A stretch of 64,000 nt of DNA from Bacteroidales bacterium (GTDB lineage: Bacteria > Bacteroidota > Bacteroidia > Bacteroidales > UBA932), in NCBI GenBank assembly GCA_017554305.1, contig JAFZIN010000012.1, positions 59,102 to 123,101 of the forward strand, written 5' to 3'. Position numbers and translations under genes: made by a program. The notes below the pieces were generated by a model that ran no database searches, was not told the origin of the DNA, and was given only the letters and a program-made list of their open reading frames with translations. Positions within the stretch are counted from its first letter, which is position 1. Each line of letters begins with the position of its first letter. This document shows, one piece after another, positions 36,290 through 43,259 of this stretch.

Positions 36290-37510
36290 ATGAAGAAATT
36301 CTTTTGTTTGATTTCCCTTCTTCTGGTAGGCTTTTTCTGCTTTGCCCAGGGAACAAGACTCTCCTTTGCAACTCCGGAGAGCATGGGTATGGACTCCGAG
36401 AGGCTGTCCAAGGTAGATGACATTATGAATAAGTCTATTAGAGACACCACCATTCCGGGTGCGGTTGTCTGCGTTGTAAGAGGTGACAAGATTGTTTATC
36501 TGAAGGCTTACGGCAACAAGGCCGTTTATCCTAAGGTTGAGAAGATGACAACCAACACCGTATTTGATTTGGCTTCCTGCAGTAAGTGCGTGGGAACAAC
36601 TCTCAGTTTTATGCAGCTGATTGAGAGCGGAAAGGTTCGTCTGATAGACAGGGTGGATATGTATATTCCGGATTTTCAGCCATACGAGGATGAGAACGGT
36701 AAAAAGACTCATATCAGGGTAATAGACCTTATGACTCACACCAGCGGTCTGCCTGCATACGTTAACCCTTCAGTTATTAAGGAGAAGTACGGCAACACAA
36801 ATCCTGAGTCTCTTTTGGATTGGATTGCCCACTGCAAGAGGGAGTTCCGTCCAACAACCGGATACCGTTACAGCTGCCTCAACTTCATTACATTGCAGAA
36901 CATACTTCAGGTTGTTACAGGAGAGAAGCTCTGTGATTACGCACAGAAGAATGTCTTTGACCGTTTAGGTTTGGAGTTCACTACATATTCTCCTAAACTC
37001 CAGAAAAAGAAGAATATAATGAAGCTCGTTGCTCCTACGGAGAAGCAGGCAGACGGCAAGTGTCTCCTTGGTGAGGTTCATGATCCGCTTGCTAGAGTAT
37101 GCGGTAACGGAAATTCCGGCAATGCGGGAGTCTTCTCAAATGCTGAAGATCTGGCAGTTATATGTGCCGCTCTGCTTAACGGCGGAGAGTATGACGGCAA
37201 GCGCATCCTTGGTCCGCTCACAGTTAAGGCAATGAGAACCGTTCCGTTTGAGGTACGCCGCTTTGGCCGCACCCTTGGATGGGATAACGATGTAATCTAC
37301 TATACTGCAGGAGATTTGCTCTCACCAGAGACATTCGGTCATACAGGTTATACCGGCCCATCTATAGTGATAGATCCGGTTACAAAGACCGCTGTGATTA
37401 TTCTTGCAAACAGAGTTCACCCATACGATACAGGCGGACTGGCACGTGAGAGAGCAACCGTAGCAAGCGTGGTTGCCGGTGCAATTATAAAGGTGGATTT
37501 ATCTAACTAA
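36290..37510 (+). CDS. Exported serine hydrolase (class C beta-lactamase/PBP-like)
   Basis: A 406-residue protein with signal peptide (MKKFFCLISLLLVGFFCFAQ). FDLASCSKCVG contains the SxxK nucleophile motif, the second motif reads YSCLNF where most relatives have YSN or YSD, and FGHTGYTG is the third (HTG). The fold is shared by esterases, D-amino peptidases and class C beta-lactamases; antibiotic hydrolysis cannot be presumed. It ends 12 bp inside the end of the convergent aroC gene. Confidence 0.86.
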   Translation: MKKFFCLISLLLVGFFCFAQGTRLSFATPESMGMDSERLSKVDDIMNKSIRDTTIPGAVVCVVRGDKIVYLKAYGNKAVYPKVEKMTTNTVFDLASCSKCVGTTLSFMQLIESGKVRLIDRVDMYIPDFQPYEDENGKKTHIRVIDLMTHTSGLPAYVNPSVIKEKYGNTNPESLLDWIAHCKREFRPTTGYRYSCLNFITLQNILQVVTGEKLCDYAQKNVFDRLGLEFTTYSPKLQKKKNIMKLVAPTEKQADGKCLLGEVHDPLARVCGNGNSGNAGVFSNAEDLAVICAALLNGGEYDGKRILGPLTVKAMRTVPFEVRRFGRTLGWDNDVIYYTAGDLLSPETFGHTGYTGPSIVIDPVTKTAVIILANRVHPYDTGGLARERATVASVVAGAIIKVDLSN

Positions 37511-38527
37511 CAGGTTATCTGCCAGAACAATAGCCGTTATAGCCTCAATAATTACGGGGCATCTTAGGGCAATAGAGACATCATGTCTTCCCTTAACGGA
37601 AATCTCTTCAACCTCTCCGGTGGAGAGGTTGATTGTTTTCTGCGGTTTAGCAATGCTGGCGGTAGGGCGCAGTGCAACGGAAAAGACAATAGGGTTGGAG
37701 TTTGAAATTCCTCCGTTAATTCCACCGCTGTGATTGGTGGCGCACTTGCCCAATTTGCTGATTATTGGGTCATTATACTCAGACCCCTTGAGCCGTGCAG
37801 AGTTGAAATAATCTTTGCCCTCCACGTCTGAAAAATCTCCAAACTCAATTCCCTTTACCCCCGGAACAGAGAAGGCCAGCTGTGAAATCTGAGACTCCAA
37901 AGAGCAGAAGAACGGTTCTCCCACACCCACCTTAACTCCCTCAGCCACACACCTTATCACACCTCCCAATGAATCACCCTCACTCTTTGCCTCTGAGAGC
38001 ATCTTTGGCCAAAGTGCAGAATTTTTTTCACCTCCTAACTCCGCGATAGATGCCTTAATAGAAATCTTCTCTCCCTTTGCTGCCAGAACTTTTTTTGCCA
38101 CTACACCTGCTGCAACAAGCGCCACAGTCATTCTTCCGGACGATTGTCCTCCGCCTTGTATGTTGCTAAACTCCTTATATTTACAGATGTTGACAAAATC
38201 TGCATGAGAAGGCCTTGGAGTAGTGCGGAACTGAGAGTAATCTTTGCCCTGAACGTTTTTGTTTTCAAAGGAGATAGTAATTGGAGAGCCGTCTGTCTTT
38301 CCGTTTTTTACTCCGGATGTGATTATAGGAATATCCTCCTCCTTTCTGGGTGTTGTTCCAAAGAGAAGAGAGATGTCATCTCCGTTTTTTCTTCTTAAAA
38401 GATCCTCCTTAAAATCCTTTTCACAAATCTCAATTCCCTCTGCACCGCAATCTACAACCACCCCCACCTCCTTTGCGTGAGATGCTCCGAATATACTGAT
38501 TTTAAAATTATTACCGTAGGTGTTCAT
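37499..38527 (-). CDS. aroC: Chorismate synthase
   Basis: A 342-residue enzyme. SIFGASHAKEVGVVVDCGAEG near the N-terminus contains the conserved His, with RPSHADFVNICKYK and GGGQSSGRMTVALVAAG following and VKGRHDVSIALR near the C-terminus. It removes phosphate from EPSP to give chorismate, using reduced FMN. It ends the minus-strand aroB-aroDA-aroC operon, one base after the aroDA stop. The C-terminal 12 bp overlap the convergent hydrolase gene. Confidence 0.96.
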   Translation of the reverse strand: MNTYGNNFKISIFGASHAKEVGVVVDCGAEGIEICEKDFKEDLLRRKNGDDISLLFGTTPRKEEDIPIITSGVKNGKTDGSPITISFENKNVQGKDYSQFRTTPRPSHADFVNICKYKEFSNIQGGGQSSGRMTVALVAAGVVAKKVLAAKGEKISIKASIAELGGEKNSALWPKMLSEAKSEGDSLGGVIRCVAEGVKVGVGEPFFCSLESQISQLAFSVPGVKGIEFGDFSDVEGKDYFNSARLKGSEYNDPIISKLGKCATNHSGGINGGISNSNPIVFSVALRPTASIAKPQKTINLSTGEVEEISVKGRHDVSIALRCPVIIEAITAIVLADNLLVR

Positions 38528-38528
38528 A

Positions 38529-40748
38529 CTACTCCGTTATTTGAAGTCTCTCCATAAAGGTAGGGAAAGATTTATCTATACATTTCAAATTGTCTATCAT
38601 AATCTTGCTTGGCGTATGGTTAAAGAGAGAGCGGAACATTCCGCAAATAACAACAGCCATTGCAATTCTGTGATCGTTATGCGCTGAGCAGTAGATGGCT
38701 GGAAGATTCTCTCCGCCCTCTTTCTCTATCAGAGTCTTTCCTCCCATACCGTTTATTATCATCACATCATCCTCAATCTCAATGCAGTATCCCATTCTGG
38801 AGAACTCCAGAATAATAGCCTCCGCCCTGTTGCTCTCCTTCTTCATAAGCCTGCTTACTCCGTTAATTCTGCTCACACCGTTACAGTAAACTGCAAGCGT
38901 GGCAAGAATAGGGAACAGATCCGGAGAGTTTGTAACATCCACATTGAAAGGCTTTAAGGAGGCTGCCTTAACGGAGACATTATTGAGTTTGTCTGAAAAA
39001 TCTCTTCTGCTGTGGAACCTGTTCTCTGCAACAGGAGCAAACTCTTCACTGTTTGGCTTTTCAAAATCAACCTCCGCACCGCAAGACTCTACCACGGAGA
39101 GAATCTTCTCATCTGCCTGGTCTGACTCCACCTCCATGTTATTGATAGTGAGCGTTTCATCCTGCTCAAAACTCTTTTGTGCAAATGTTGCAATGGCACC
39201 CGCCGCCACAAAATTTGAGGCGCTGCTCCAGTCTGAATCCATAAAGAAATCTACCGGATGATAACTCTGATTGCCCGCAATATTGAAGATGAACTTGTTC
39301 TCTTTCTTTGTAACTCCAATCTTAATTCCAAAACTGCTAAGAACGTCAATGGTCAGATCTATGAACGGAGTGCTCACCGGATTTTCCACCACCATTGTTG
39401 TATCTTGCTTAAGCAGAGGGAGAACCATTAGGAACCCAGATACTGTTTGAGAGCTCTCGTTACCGGATATTGTAAAGTTTTTCTCCGTAATTCCGCCGCC
39501 AATTGTAATAGGCAGAAACTCCCCCTCCATTCTCGGATTCTTTGTGGCCGAGCATACCGCTCCCGATTTTTTAACGGCAGCCACAGCGGAAGACAAATCT
39601 CTCTTAAGCAGAGTCTCCTCTCCCACAAGCGTAATCTTTGATGTAACGGCCGTCTTGTTTCTAATGCTTGATACGTAGGCCATTATAGGCATAAGCAGAC
39701 GGGTGAGCAGGCCAGATTCTCCAACATCTGCAATCTGAAAATATTTCCACTTTGCAATTCCCGCGCTTCTTATTATGAGCATCTTCTCTCCCTTGCTGCT
39801 CTTTCCGTCTCTGCTTATCTTAATGACACAGCCGCATTTACGGGCAAACGTCACTGCAGATTTTATATCTCCGCACGGCTCAAAATTTCTCAGAATAGTC
39901 TGGCCGCTGGCAATGGCCGCCGCCACTATTGCCCTCTGTGCTATGCTTTTAGAGCAAGGAATGGAGATGCTCTTTCCCTTTTTCTTGCGCGCTGTTGGCA
40001 GACTCTTCTGACAGAATCGGGAGAAGAGTTCACTCTTTGAGGCATCTTCCACCTGAGAGAACGAGCCGCTTCCAATAACTCCCAGCAACTCTTTATACAT
40101 CTCAGTAACAGTGTATTGCCCCGTACCGGTAGGACTTCCCACGCTACAGTATGTGAACGGCGCCCCCATACCAATTATTGCAATTCTGGTAAAGCGTCCA
40201 ATCTCTCCCATTGAGAAAGCAATAAGGTGTTCTCTGTCTACACCCAAATCTGTACAGTGGTAGAGCGAGAGCACTCTGGAGGCCTCCGATATGTTGTTTG
40301 CGGTAACTGCAATCTTCACAATATCAGCCCCTTTTCTAACACATTCCGCCACCGCCTCTTTCATCTTTTCCAGAGAAGGAGTCTGGGTGAAGTTGTGATA
40401 AGAAAGAATAAGTTTGCATCTCACCGCCTGAGGTTTTTTATCTATCTCCTCCCTTATTTTTGCAATGAACTCATCATCTGCGCTAACATCCACATCTACA
40501 TACGCCACCCCTTTGTTAATGGCTGCAACCATCTGATTCAAAGCAATCTCCCTGCCGTATTCATCAAACCTGTATGTGAAAATCAGATTCAGATTCTGAG
40601 AAATGAGAGTCTCTATATCCTTGAGAGTCAGAAGACAGATGTCTCCCCTAATCTCCGCAAAGCTATGTTTGGAGGCAAGAGCCATACACTCGGAAAAGTT
40701 CTTCTCCGATATGCACGCACATATTTTCCTTTTTATGCTCTCCTCCAT
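38529..40748 (-). CDS. Fused 3-dehydroquinate dehydratase (type I) and EPSP synthase
   Basis: A 739-residue bifunctional enzyme. Residues 1-235 are a type I dehydroquinase: LIFTYRFDEYGRE, LSYHNFTQTPS with the catalytic His, GADIVKIAVTANN with the Schiff-base Lys, and FTYCSVGSPTGTGQYT. Residues about 250-739 are EPSP synthase: SIPCSKSIAQRAIVAAAIAS, GNESSQTVSGFLMVLPLL, MDSDWSSASNFVAAGAIA and NDHRIAMAVVICG. The two steps (AroD and AroA) flank shikimate dehydrogenase and kinase in the pathway, so the fusion does not join consecutive reactions. Reading is continuous, so it is not an assembly artefact of two frames. Confidence 0.92.
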   Translation of the reverse strand: MEESIKRKICACISEKNFSECMALASKHSFAEIRGDICLLTLKDIETLISQNLNLIFTYRFDEYGREIALNQMVAAINKGVAYVDVDVSADDEFIAKIREEIDKKPQAVRCKLILSYHNFTQTPSLEKMKEAVAECVRKGADIVKIAVTANNISEASRVLSLYHCTDLGVDREHLIAFSMGEIGRFTRIAIIGMGAPFTYCSVGSPTGTGQYTVTEMYKELLGVIGSGSFSQVEDASKSELFSRFCQKSLPTARKKKGKSISIPCSKSIAQRAIVAAAIASGQTILRNFEPCGDIKSAVTFARKCGCVIKISRDGKSSKGEKMLIIRSAGIAKWKYFQIADVGESGLLTRLLMPIMAYVSSIRNKTAVTSKITLVGEETLLKRDLSSAVAAVKKSGAVCSATKNPRMEGEFLPITIGGGITEKNFTISGNESSQTVSGFLMVLPLLKQDTTMVVENPVSTPFIDLTIDVLSSFGIKIGVTKKENKFIFNIAGNQSYHPVDFFMDSDWSSASNFVAAGAIATFAQKSFEQDETLTINNMEVESDQADEKILSVVESCGAEVDFEKPNSEEFAPVAENRFHSRRDFSDKLNNVSVKAASLKPFNVDVTNSPDLFPILATLAVYCNGVSRINGVSRLMKKESNRAEAIILEFSRMGYCIEIEDDVMIINGMGGKTLIEKEGGENLPAIYCSAHNDHRIAMAVVICGMFRSLFNHTPSKIMIDNLKCIDKSFPTFMERLQITE

Positions 40749-40760
40749 ATTGCAGAATGT

Positions 40761-41795
40761 TTACAATTCAATCTCTTTCAGCACTTTTTGCAACTCCTTC
40801 AGCTCTATCTTTTTCTGTATAATCCTCCCGATAGATTTTGGCAGAACCAGTGAGATGCTCTCTCCGCTCCTCTTTTTGTCTGCCTTAATTGCAGAGAAGA
40901 GCTGAGCTGCAGAAGCAGGGCAACTGACAGGAAGTGAGGCCATAATAAGATCATTGCGGAACTCCTTCACAAACTTTTCCGTGCAAAGTGAAAGCTTCTC
41001 CGCCACCTTTGCCGCAATCACCATTCCTATGCTCACTGCCTCTCCGTGCAACATACTGTATACCTCAGTTGTACCGCTTGCTACTGCGGCCTCTATTGCG
41101 TGGGCAAAAGTGTGCCCCAGATTCAGCAGCCTCCTCTTTCCTCTATCTTTCTCATCTTCAGCCACAAGCCGCATCTTCATCTCTCCGCAGAGAGCAATCA
41201 GCCTCTTAAGCTCTTTCTCCTGCCACCCTGCCGGCTTGTTGTTTTTGTAAACGGAGGCAAGAGCCAGCGCCTGACAGTAACTTTCCTTGTCAAAAATCAT
41301 AAAGGTTTTAAGCATCTCTGCAATTCCCTCTCTGAATACTCTCTCATCCAAACTCTTTAGGAAAGCAGAAGTAAGATAGATCCACTCCGGCTGGTTAATG
41401 GTACCTATCATATTTTTATAGCCGGAGAAGTTTACCCCGTTTTTGCCTCCAATTGCAGCATCTATCTGGGCCAGAAGGGTGGTTGGAACAAATCCAAACC
41501 TTACTCCACGCTTGTATGTGGAGGCCAAAAAGCCTGTAATATCCGTGGTAACTCCGCCGCCTACTCCTATTATAAAGCAATCTCTGTCTGCACCAAACTC
41601 CATCAGAGCCTCATAAATGCCGTATATGTACTCCAAACTCTTATTACATTCCTTGGCATCTATAGGTATAAGGTGAAAATTTCTGTTGTTTGGAAAGTAT
41701 TCTGTTACATTCTTATCAATTATTACAAAAACACCGCTGTTTTGAGGGATGTGTTTTGCTAAACAGTTGATATCCTTGTGATTGTAAAGTTGCAT
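40761..41795 (-). CDS. aroB: 3-dehydroquinate synthase
   Basis: A 344-residue NAD- and zinc-dependent enzyme: VGGGVTTDITGFLASTYKRG (NAD loop), TTLLAQIDAAIGGKNGVNF, and LLNLGHTFAHAIEAA with zinc His. It closes DAHP to 3-dehydroquinate. The ATG at 41793-41795 (MQLYNHKDINC) is chosen; the longer frame would begin with a GTG that overlaps the promoter -7 box. First gene of the aro operon, 12 bp before aroDA. Confidence 0.95.
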   Translation of the reverse strand: MQLYNHKDINCLAKHIPQNSGVFVIIDKNVTEYFPNNRNFHLIPIDAKECNKSLEYIYGIYEALMEFGADRDCFIIGVGGGVTTDITGFLASTYKRGVRFGFVPTTLLAQIDAAIGGKNGVNFSGYKNMIGTINQPEWIYLTSAFLKSLDERVFREGIAEMLKTFMIFDKESYCQALALASVYKNNKPAGWQEKELKRLIALCGEMKMRLVAEDEKDRGKRRLLNLGHTFAHAIEAAVASGTTEVYSMLHGEAVSIGMVIAAKVAEKLSLCTEKFVKEFRNDLIMASLPVSCPASAAQLFSAIKADKKRSGESISLVLPKSIGRIIQKKIELKELQKVLKEIEL

Positions 41796-41821
41796 TTTGG
41801 TGCTATTTGTAATTATTAGCA

Positions 41822-41829
41822 CAAATATA
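41822..41829 (-). promoter_or_regulatory. -7 box of the aroB operon
   Basis: TATATTTG on the minus strand, 26 bp upstream of the aroB ATG, leaving a short leader. The -33 element is not obvious. Confidence 0.6.
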
Positions 41830-41900
41830 AGAAAATTTACCCTTAGATTGTGTTGTTTTTGTTAAGGTTTTACTTTTTAAGTAACATTTTTTAGTAACAA

Positions 41901-41932
41901 TTTGCAAAAACTAAAAGCCAAATATATTTTTG
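41901..41932 (+). promoter_or_regulatory. Promoter of the DAHP synthase-chorismate mutase gene
   Basis: TTTG (41901-41904) and TATTTTTG (41925-41932) are 20 bp apart. Transcription starts near 41938, about 250 bp in front of the coding region, leaving a long leader that contains the attenuator. It is divergent from the aroB promoter. Confidence 0.7.
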
Positions 41933-41983
41933 CACATGGAAAGAGAACCGGAAGATACTGGTCGGAGCCCTTTCTGCTGACAA

Positions 41984-42043
41984 ATGAATAAGTTGAATAG
42001 ACATAACAGCCACAATTACTGTTACTCCTGGCAAAAATGCTGA
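41984..42043 (+). CDS. Leader peptide of the aromatic attenuator
   Basis: A 19-residue reading frame, MNKLNRHNSHNYCYSWQKC, lies between promoter and terminator. The sequence Asn-Tyr-Cys-Tyr-Ser-Trp puts two TAC and one TGG codon within five codons, as expected for sensing charged tRNA-Tyr and tRNA-Trp. The stop codon (42041-42043) overlaps the first bases of the antiterminator arm at 42042-42050, so a ribosome finishing the peptide would mask that arm. A second mini-frame (41936-41980, 14 codons, one Phe) precedes it. No ribosome-binding site is expected in this phylum. Confidence 0.7.
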   Translation: MNKLNRHNSHNYCYSWQKC

Positions 42044-42134
42044 GAGCAGGTTACTGTGGCAATTTGGTTAAAGTGTAAAAGTATTTGTTAATGTCTGTCG
42101 GTTTCCTGCTTTCAAAAGAAGCGGGATTTTTTTT
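42009..42134 (+). promoter_or_regulatory. Transcription attenuator (antiterminator and terminator)
   Basis: Arm 1: GCCACA (42009-42014) and CCTG (42027-42030) lie within the leader peptide codons. Arm 2: GAGAGCAGG (42042-42050) and TGTGGC (42055-42060) can pair with them. Arm 3: CCTGCTTTC (42105-42113) pairs fully (one G-T) with GAGAGCAGG, the antiterminator. Arm 4: GAAGCGGGA (42118-42126) pairs with TCCTGCTTT (42104-42112) and is followed by eight T (42127-42134), an intrinsic terminator. This is the trp-type design: stalling at Tyr/Trp codons frees arm 2 and lets transcription continue into the gene at 42189. Confidence 0.72.
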
Positions 42135-42188
42135 ATCCTTGAAAGTGTGCTGAATTTTTCGGAGATTTGCACTAAGAATCGGGAGAAG

Positions 42189-43259
42189 ATGTCAGATATC
42201 AGAAAACCGGAAAGTTCAGCAGGCGTCTCAAGGCCGCTGGTGATTGCAGGCCCTTGCAGTGCGGAGAGCAGAGAACAGTTGCTCTCTACCGCTGTTGCAG
42301 TTGCAGAGGCGGGGGTTAAGATCTTCCGTGCAGGGCTTTGGAAGCCAAGAACTAAACCTGGTGGTTTTGAGGGAGTTGGAGCAGCCGGGCTGGAGTGGCT
42401 CAGGGAGGTGAGAGAGCAAACCGGAATGAAAATTCTCACTGAGGTTGCAACGCCCTCTCACATTGAGCAGGTGATGAAAATCAACCCGGATCTTCTATGG
42501 ATAGGGGCCCGCACAACAACAGATCCGTTTGCAGTTCAAGCCATAGCAGATGCTCTTAAAGGCATCCCAATTCCAATACTGGTTAAAAATCCTCTCAGTG
42601 CTGAGATTGATCTCTGGAGCGGCGCAGTTGAGCGTCTTTCAAATGCGGGAGTGGCTTCAATTGGGCTTATCCACAGAGGTTTCAGCACCTACGAGCACAA
42701 ATCTTACCGTAACGCCCCACTCTGGCACATTCCAATGGAGATGAAGAGAAGGTTCCCATCCATATCTCTCCTTTGTGACCCAAGCCACATGGGAGGCAGC
42801 CGCGCTCTTATTGCTCCAATCTGCCAGCAGGCTATGGATTTGATGTATGACGGCCTTATGATTGAGACCCACATCAATCCCAATGAGGCCCTTTCAGACA
42901 AGGCTCAGCAGATTACGCCGGCGGAGCTGAAACTCATCCTGCAAAATCTCATCATTAGGGAGAACTCCAAAGAGATTGAGGGAATAGGGGCTTTCCGCAG
43001 CGAGATAGACGAACTGGATGACGAACTCTTAAAGGTGCTCTCTCGCAGAATGCAGATTTCCAAAGAAATAGGGGAGTATAAAAAGCAGCACAATATTCCG
43101 GTTTTCCAAAAGGAGCGTTACGGAGAAATTATTCAGAGCGCCCTCTTAAAGGCAAAAGATATGGGATTGGATGAGGAATTTGTCCGCTCAATTATTGAGG
43201 CCATCCACCGGGAGTCCGTCCGCATCCAGCTGCCCCCAGGTGGCCTTAACGTAATCTAA
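42189..43259 (+). CDS. DAHP synthase fused to chorismate mutase
   Basis: A 356-residue bifunctional enzyme. The first 260 residues are a DAHP synthase of the AroA(f)/KDO8P-like group: VIAGPCSAESREQLL, KIFRAGLWKPRTKPGGFEG, WIGARTTTDPFAVQ, LIHRGFSTYEHKSYRN and LLCDPSHMGGSRA supply substrate and metal ligands. From about 270 an AroQ-type chorismate mutase follows (FRSEIDELDDELLKVLSRRM, SKEIGEYKKQ). It condenses PEP with erythrose 4-phosphate and also converts chorismate to prephenate. Start: ATG at 42189 (MSDIRKP), not the GTG at 42147. The 3' end overlaps dus by 72 bp. Confidence 0.92.
   Translation: MSDIRKPESSAGVSRPLVIAGPCSAESREQLLSTAVAVAEAGVKIFRAGLWKPRTKPGGFEGVGAAGLEWLREVREQTGMKILTEVATPSHIEQVMKINPDLLWIGARTTTDPFAVQAIADALKGIPIPILVKNPLSAEIDLWSGAVERLSNAGVASIGLIHRGFSTYEHKSYRNAPLWHIPMEMKRRFPSISLLCDPSHMGGSRALIAPICQQAMDLMYDGLMIETHINPNEALSDKAQQITPAELKLILQNLIIRENSKEIEGIGAFRSEIDELDDELLKVLSRRMQISKEIGEYKKQHNIPVFQKERYGEIIQSALLKAKDMGLDEEFVRSIIEAIHRESVRIQLPPGGLNVI

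Follow-up and report, generated by a model that had tools for sequence, protein, structure and literature searches.

Ribosome-mediated attenuators of the trpL and pheL type, known from Proteobacteria, combine a leader open reading frame carrying regulatory codons with mutually exclusive 2:3 and 3:4 hairpins, masking by a ribosome at the stop codon, and a U tract. In the classical attenuation model the antiterminator forms before region 4 is made. Within Bacteroidota, the Bacteroid-trp RNA carries Trp codons. The part of PMC2864571 that concerns this RNA (RF01692) tabulates it as a likely cis-regulatory RNA.

Leaders in front of DAHP synthase genes have been described in other phyla. The aroR leader before aroF of C. 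glutamicum contains Phe-Tyr-Phe codons, and Tyr availability is given as having no effect in a passage of PMC11802643 citing Neshat et al. 2014. Passages of PMC8632094 present Acholeplasma uORFC-13-1, a uORF with Phe codon(s) and a terminator before aroF, as a computational proposal, and point to an earlier hypothesis of attenuation at E. coli aroF. Closer to the present organism, sections of PMC9723704 report a structured 5′ element without an Rfam match before pheA in Flavobacteriaceae, as well as clues to leader-peptide attenuation upstream of amino acid operons, and an excerpt of the B. thetaiotaomicron transcriptome study (PMC7366714) refers to sORFs in long 5′ UTRs as reminiscent of leader peptides. 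The main text of Naville and Gautheret (PMC2965389), the part of that source considered here, holds no word beginning “Bacteroid”.

Here we describe a Tyr/Trp leader (YW leader) in front of a gene for DAHP synthase fused to chorismate mutase (DAHPS-CM). It lies in a 64,000-nucleotide stretch of Bacteroidales DNA, hereafter the window, from a 1.82-Mb draft genome in 32 contigs (G000) of an uncultured gut bacterium. The element has the same layout as trpL/pheL (RF00513, RF01859) and differs in its Tyr plus Trp codons and its DAHPS-CM target; neither family was among the matches to the window region at E values up to 5, and the likeness is one of layout. With the aroR leader, as far as the passage cited above describes it, the window shares aromatic-codon attenuation of DAHP synthase, but aroR has Phe-Tyr-Phe codons and belongs to another phylum; uORFC-13-1 likewise pairs a leader with a terminator at DAHP synthase, but in another phylum and, in the passages cited, with no Tyr-Trp motif. 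Bacteroid-trp has the phylum in common with the window element, and its covariance model does not match the window. The sequence-only reading had proposed a scan for this family; identity with Bacteroid-trp was rejected, as RF01692 was absent from the window-region matches at E up to 5 and had no match in G000, while it matched 37 of 393 genomes of the order at E up to 0.001. The novelty first claimed for the locus therefore holds in part: a leader before DAHP synthase is already in print, reported for C. glutamicum and proposed for Acholeplasma, whereas the Tyr-Trp variant appears to be new. Among the literature matches listed we recognised no paper on a Tyr-Trp leader or on a pheA leader of Bacteroidales, which does not prove that none exists.

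Layout of the leader region

The components of the putative attenuator and its neighbours in the window are as follows.

41901..41932, + strand: Bacteroidota-type promoter, from sequence (TTTG 41901-41904, 20-nt gap, TATTTTTG 41925-41932)
41984..42043, + strand: leader peptide ORF, MNKLNRHNSHNYCYSWQKC then stop (ATG 41984, TGA 42041-42043, 19 codons)
42017..42031, + strand: candidate regulatory codons TAC TGT TAC TCC TGG (codons 12-16: Tyr12, Tyr14, Trp16)
42009..42060, + strand: predicted region 1:2 hairpin, z -2.61 (outer arms GCCACA 42009-42014 and TGTGGC 42055-42060)
42041..42050, + strand: region 2, the antiterminator 5′ arm TGAGAGCAGG, overlapping the leader stop codon
42066..42076, + strand: conserved spacer GGTTAAAGTGT, with the form GGTTATAGTGT in the other YW loci
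42105..42114, + strand: region 3 CCTGCTTTCA, the terminator 5′ arm and pairing partner of region 2
42104..42134, + strand: predicted intrinsic terminator (3:4 hairpin 42104-42126, 9 pairs, loop of 5) and T8 tract 42127-42134
42189..43259, + strand: DAHPS-CM, with Pfam domains PF00793 (DAHP synthase) and PF01817 (chorismate mutase)
37499..41822, - strand: divergent neighbours, by Pfam (aroB 40761-41822, aroD-aroA fusion 38529-40748, aroC 37499-38527)

A promoter with both boxes, a 19-codon leader with TAC-TGT-TAC-TCC-TGG and a 9-bp terminator stem followed by eight T had all been claimed by the sequence-only reading and are found at these positions; the promoter is named Bacteroidota-type from what we take to be the consensus for the phylum. 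Two details of that reading need correction. The antiterminator arm, said to begin at the stop codon, does overlap it, but GAGAGCAGG lies at 42042-42050 and therefore begins one base into the stop codon, TGAGAGCAGG being the same stretch with the preceding T. Its partner, CCTGCTTTC(A) at 42105-42114, was described as perfect, whereas the 9-bp match includes one G-U pair. The region 1:2 hairpin encloses the regulatory codons and region 2, and its outer arms pair imperfectly in loci L003 and L004. DAHPS-CM most likely starts at ATG 42189, with GTG 42147 as an in-frame alternative, and the order aroB, aroDA, aroC beside it recurs in six further YW loci that were displayed, judging by eye from where the proteins begin.

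This arrangement is very probably a ribosome-mediated transcription attenuator of the trp/phe type. From its sequence, conservation, geometry and pairing potential we infer translation of the leader, ribosome stalling and termination in the cell. Transcription would start near 41938, judging from the promoter box, and a ribosome would translate the 19-codon leader. With charged Tyr- or Trp-tRNA in short supply, the ribosome would halt at Tyr12, Tyr14 or Trp16 and open region 1; region 2, left free at the stop codon, would then pair with region 3 as soon as the latter is made, and this 2:3 pairing would block the terminator and let DAHPS-CM be transcribed. A ribosome that reaches the stop codon would instead cover region 2, allowing the 3:4 hairpin to form and transcription to end at about 42134.

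Conservation of the Tyr/Trp leader within the genus

The genus sample comprised 39 genomes, from which DAHPS-CM matches were taken and the upstream DNA of at least 30 loci was read in gene orientation. The YW element was found 5′ of a stand-alone DAHPS-CM in 12 of the 39 genomes, three in the window's sub-clade (A: G000, G021, G035), eight in sub-clade B (G003, G009, G012, G015, G022, G023, G029, G030) and one in G027. All 12 leaders are 19 codons long, with all three stop codons represented at codon 20, and all 12 loci have the terminator hairpin and T tract; a TANNTTTG box begins 15-59 nt 5′ of each leader ATG. The attenuator alignment has a mean column identity of 75%, and the window DAHPS-CM shares no more than 56-58% identity with three proteins of sub-clade B. 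These 12 sequences form one clan and are not independent.

The leader codons, which the sequence-only reading had suggested aligning among relatives, proved to be conserved at the candidate stall site. Tyr14-Ser15-Trp16 occurs in 12 of 12 loci with synonymous changes only (TAC/TAT, TCC/TCT; TGG fixed), and codons 14-16 are the sole invariant sense codons beyond Met1, 14 of the 15 others showing at least three residues. Tyr12 is not conserved, other Tyr codons come and go, and G027 carries a second Trp at codon 18. The bases of codons 14-16 also join the predicted 1:2 pairing, which would suit a reading in which Tyr-Ser-Trp is conserved as RNA, through the pairing of region 1 with region 2, and the regulatory signal is something other than these codons. 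We consider that very unlikely, given the purely synonymous variation within codons 14-16 set against the diversity of nearly all other positions.

On its own the window is weak evidence, because generic scans of 41700-42400 gave counts at chance level (one terminator-like site against 0.7 expected, and one promoter-like site against 0.7 expected) and the folding z was modest (-1.78 for 41936-42140; -2.61 for 42000-42075). Such counts are what a plain terminator of an upstream transcript, lying next to a chance ORF, could offer in its favour; conservation and geometry in 12 loci speak against it, as does the divergent aroB, owing to which no upstream gene reads into the terminator, and we find this explanation barely credible. 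Given its conservation in 12 genomes the predicted element is beyond chance, and comparative sequence data support well a conserved, putatively ribosome-mediated attenuator control with Tyr and Trp as the regulatory codons.

A covariance model built from the 12 YW elements (R1) recovered within the genus its own 12 sequences, as expected by construction, a remnant in G014 and weaker matches. Among the 23 genus genomes without prephenate dehydratase (PF00800), 12 have the YW leader and G014 has the remnant; the other 10 gave no R1 match except G005, whose match is weak (E 0.014) and on a different contig from its DAHPS-CM. Searched with stricter filters against 393 evenly drawn genomes of the order, of which just six including G000 come from its family, R1 matched G000 only.

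Several smaller features accompany the element. The spacer GGTTA(A/T)AGTGT (42066-42076 in the window), between regions 2 and 3, is conserved across sub-clades, and in sub-clade B it could pair by eye with leader codons 7-8 (TATAAC/GTTATA), perhaps as a helix closing the element. Inspection by eye suggests a possible hairpin GGAAAG...CTTTC(C/T) in the 5′ UTR of sub-clade A, ahead of the leader (41937-41975 in the window). In each of the nine remaining YW loci the leader begins some 15 nt past the first base of the -7 box and hence very near the presumed 5′ end.

Predicted alternative pairing of the leader RNA

In every one of the 12 YW loci region 2 begins 0-6 nt past the first base of the leader stop codon, and folding predicts a 2:3 antiterminator and a 3:4 terminator with U tract that are mutually exclusive. 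We folded the nascent RNA up to the end of region 3 under a ribosome mask, with the mask width and the 5′ end being our own choice; under these settings the predicted probability of 2:3 pairing was 1.00 in 12 of 12 YW loci with either Tyr14 or Trp16 in the A site, and at most 0.01 in 12 of 12 with the ribosome at the stop. The geometry put forward in the sequence-only reading, in which a stall frees region 2 and a ribosome at the stop masks it, is thus borne out by this modelling. The switch occurs two or three codons past Trp16. Almost any stall earlier in the leader would likewise leave region 2 free, hence specificity would rest on codon content. Without a ribosome, where the 1:2 hairpin would be the default state, the 2:3 probability was below 0.3 in only 7 of 12 YW loci.

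At full-length equilibrium with a stalled ribosome, the terminator reached a probability of no less than 0.85 in 5 of 12 YW loci when the stall was at Tyr14 and in 7 of 12 when it was at Trp16 (0.98 at both codons in the window); of the Phe/Tyr elements described below, 7 of 11 gave no less than 0.95 whichever codon the ribosome occupied. As the terminator often wins at equilibrium, the antiterminator would have to form first in time, which is what the classical model assumes.

The register of region 2 differs from one sub-clade to another, and for this reason a swap test took the place of base-pair counts on the YW alignment. It compares each element's own region 2/region 3 pairing with swapped pairing over 5000 permutations, which ignore relatedness. 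Own pairing scored 23.3 against 17.4 for swapped pairing in 45 Bacteroidales Phe/Tyr elements, with none of the 5000 permutations as high, and the same was true of all 68 elements (0/5000); the 23 genus elements gave 4/5000. The 12 YW elements alone were less clear (139/5000), although own pairing again beat swapped pairing, and the 11 genus Phe/Tyr elements alone gave no signal (1551/5000).

A second conserved stretch

A second conserved stretch is present in nine YW loci out of 12, the eight of sub-clade B and that of G027. It lies between the terminator and the DAHPS-CM start, at these positions in the extracted loci.

L009: 2500-2649
L011: 2500-2649
L012: 1408-1554
L016: 2500-2645
L021: 2500-2649
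L023: 1371-1518
L030: 1372-1518
L032: 820-970
L035: 2760-2911

Its mean column identity is 85%, and it is predicted to fold as one long hairpin with a conserved loop, ending just 5′ of a T run and the start codon. The folding z was -3.81 in L009 and only -1.22 in L035, and two of 40 predicted pairs are changed on both sides. The stretch was not seen in the window's sub-clade, one locus scanned gave no Rfam match of note, and a short pattern taken from it was unmatched in viral contigs. A further regulatory RNA is one possibility, and a promoter-operator, in which CTGCAA-N9-TTGCAG spans TATATTTG, is another.

Aromatic pathway genes in the YW genomes

The 12 YW genomes lack matches to several enzymes that use prephenate or chorismate. 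Prephenate dehydratase (PF00800) is found in 16 of the 39 genus genomes and in none of the 12, and prephenate dehydrogenase (PF02153) gave no match in them either, a relative's protein used as query reaching a best E of 0.03. There was likewise no match in the 12 genomes to TrpE (TIGR00564), to TrpE/PabB/MenF-type enzymes (PF00425) or to PF02621 (futalosine route, MqnA-type chorismate user). The same searches were positive in other genus genomes, and the family searches also in control genomes. The completeness of the 12 genomes is 73-96%, which makes a shared assembly gap unlikely. Shikimate kinase is present in 38 of 39 genus genomes including all 12 (matched in G000 in two parts within a single 247-aa frame). 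In an 11-protein alignment covering both lineages the residues of the chorismate mutase domain that are presumably catalytic, to go by the E. coli enzyme, are invariant. Across the genus, PF00425 genes (TrpE-type and other chorismate-binding) occur in only three of 39 genomes (G025, G026, G037), a scarcity that reflects broad loss of chorismate-using genes.

These results lend no support to the proposal of the sequence-only reading that Tyr and Trp act as end products in feedback, since with neither TyrA, prephenate dehydratase nor TrpE-type enzymes detectable in the 12 YW genomes, no end product is known through which such feedback could act. There are then two readings: the leader may register scarcity in an auxotroph, or prephenate or chorismate may feed an unrecognised route.

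The first of these, which refines the attenuator explanation and is not a competing mechanism, would have the element sense starvation or uptake in an auxotroph for aromatic amino acids, where a shortage of Tyr or Trp signals scarcity and turns DAHPS-CM up in the service of some other pathway product, not of Tyr or Trp. The absence of PF00800, PF02153, TIGR00564 and PF00425 matches in genomes that yet keep shikimate kinase points this way, as does the aro cluster adjoining DAHPS-CM in the seven YW loci read. No benefiting product was found, however, the 12 genomes having neither a TrpE/PabB/MenF-type enzyme nor PF02621, and we put the chance that this account is right at a little under one half. 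The second would take the retention of a functional attenuator recoded for Tyr/Trp as a pointer to an undiscovered prephenate- or chorismate-consuming route supplying Tyr and perhaps Trp, with the codons naming the product. In the YW genomes the steps tested on the way to chorismate are intact, as is the chorismate mutase domain, which is consistent with such a route, though we hold it to be unlikely.

The leader might also be a relic, having arisen when an ancestor still made Tyr and Trp, and now be decaying. Related genomes do show losses: G014 (L050) keeps the terminator and has lost the leader ORF, G017 (L051) has lost both, and neither is found before DAHPS-CM in G005 and G028. In the 12 YW genomes, however, leader length, Tyr-Ser-Trp and pairing geometry are intact while DAHPS-CM itself has diverged as far as noted above, and we judge decay to be quite improbable as an explanation of the YW leader.

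Phe/Tyr leaders before prephenate dehydratase

A Phe/Tyr-dense leader, e.g. MRQHRFTYCFFYYFYQETR, lies just 5′ of prephenate dehydratase in all 16 genus genomes with PF00800; a strict scan for leader plus terminator found it in 11 of 13 genus operon heads, the exceptions being G038 and G033. Leader type thus matches gene content in the genus, with Phe/Tyr in 16 of 16 genomes with PF00800 and Tyr/Trp in 12 of the 23 without. Furthermore, a Phe/Tyr-dense leader with terminator was detected upstream in 45 of 80 named Bacteroidales DAHPS-CM loci, against 0 of 80 on the opposite strand, a strict count that omits further loci with a weaker terminator. A relaxed terminator rule added loci including Bacteroides fragilis (L109) and B. 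xylanisolvens (L120), and Phocaeicola vulgatus is among the Bacteroidales with such a leader before prephenate dehydratase. The 45 leaders lie 2.2-3.4 kb 5′ of the DAHPS-CM match, and the first ORF past the terminator (picked by rule) is prephenate dehydratase in 44, the remaining one having no PF00800 match.

Scans of the window and of five named Phe/Tyr loci gave no match to an Rfam leader family. The Phe/Tyr element of G024 scored 24.3 bits against RF01859 (gathering 55) and 17.1 against RF00513 (gathering 41), both far below threshold. As described in the sections of PMC9723704 cited above, the Flavobacteriaceae element shares Bacteroidota and pheA with the Bacteroidales Phe/Tyr leader and may be of the same kind.

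Origin of the Tyr/Trp leader

The YW element is probably related to the Phe/Tyr leader before pheA in many Bacteroidales. R1, although built from YW elements only, matched the pheA leader in four of the 16 genomes that have one (G018, G024, G026, G034) at E values of 8e-5 to 1.3e-3, which are rough, per-genome values, modest once 39 genomes are counted, and which for that reason suggest common descent without proving it. At the codon level, descent of YW from Phe/Tyr received weak support, codon-shuffle tests being mostly not significant (p 0.0035-0.72 for 24 pairs, 0.04-0.80 for 12).

In a tree of 36 DAHPS-CM proteins (32 of the 39 genus genomes and four others; without G031, G032, G036, G001, G004, G010 and G034) one change is enough to account for the YW label (support 99/97), and G014, G017, G005 and G028, which have no intact leader, fall among the YW genomes. 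The YW lineage has no Phe codon near the stall site, keeps Tyr and has a Trp codon. A plausible path is that Phe codons were lost, Tyr retained and Trp gained, perhaps in that order, in a lineage without pheA.

The comparison reveals a Phe/Tyr leader before prephenate dehydratase across many Bacteroidales. In the YW lineage, where no known gene for making Tyr or Trp was detected, a Tyr/Trp leader is kept and offers a handle on the purpose of the shikimate pathway that these bacteria retain.
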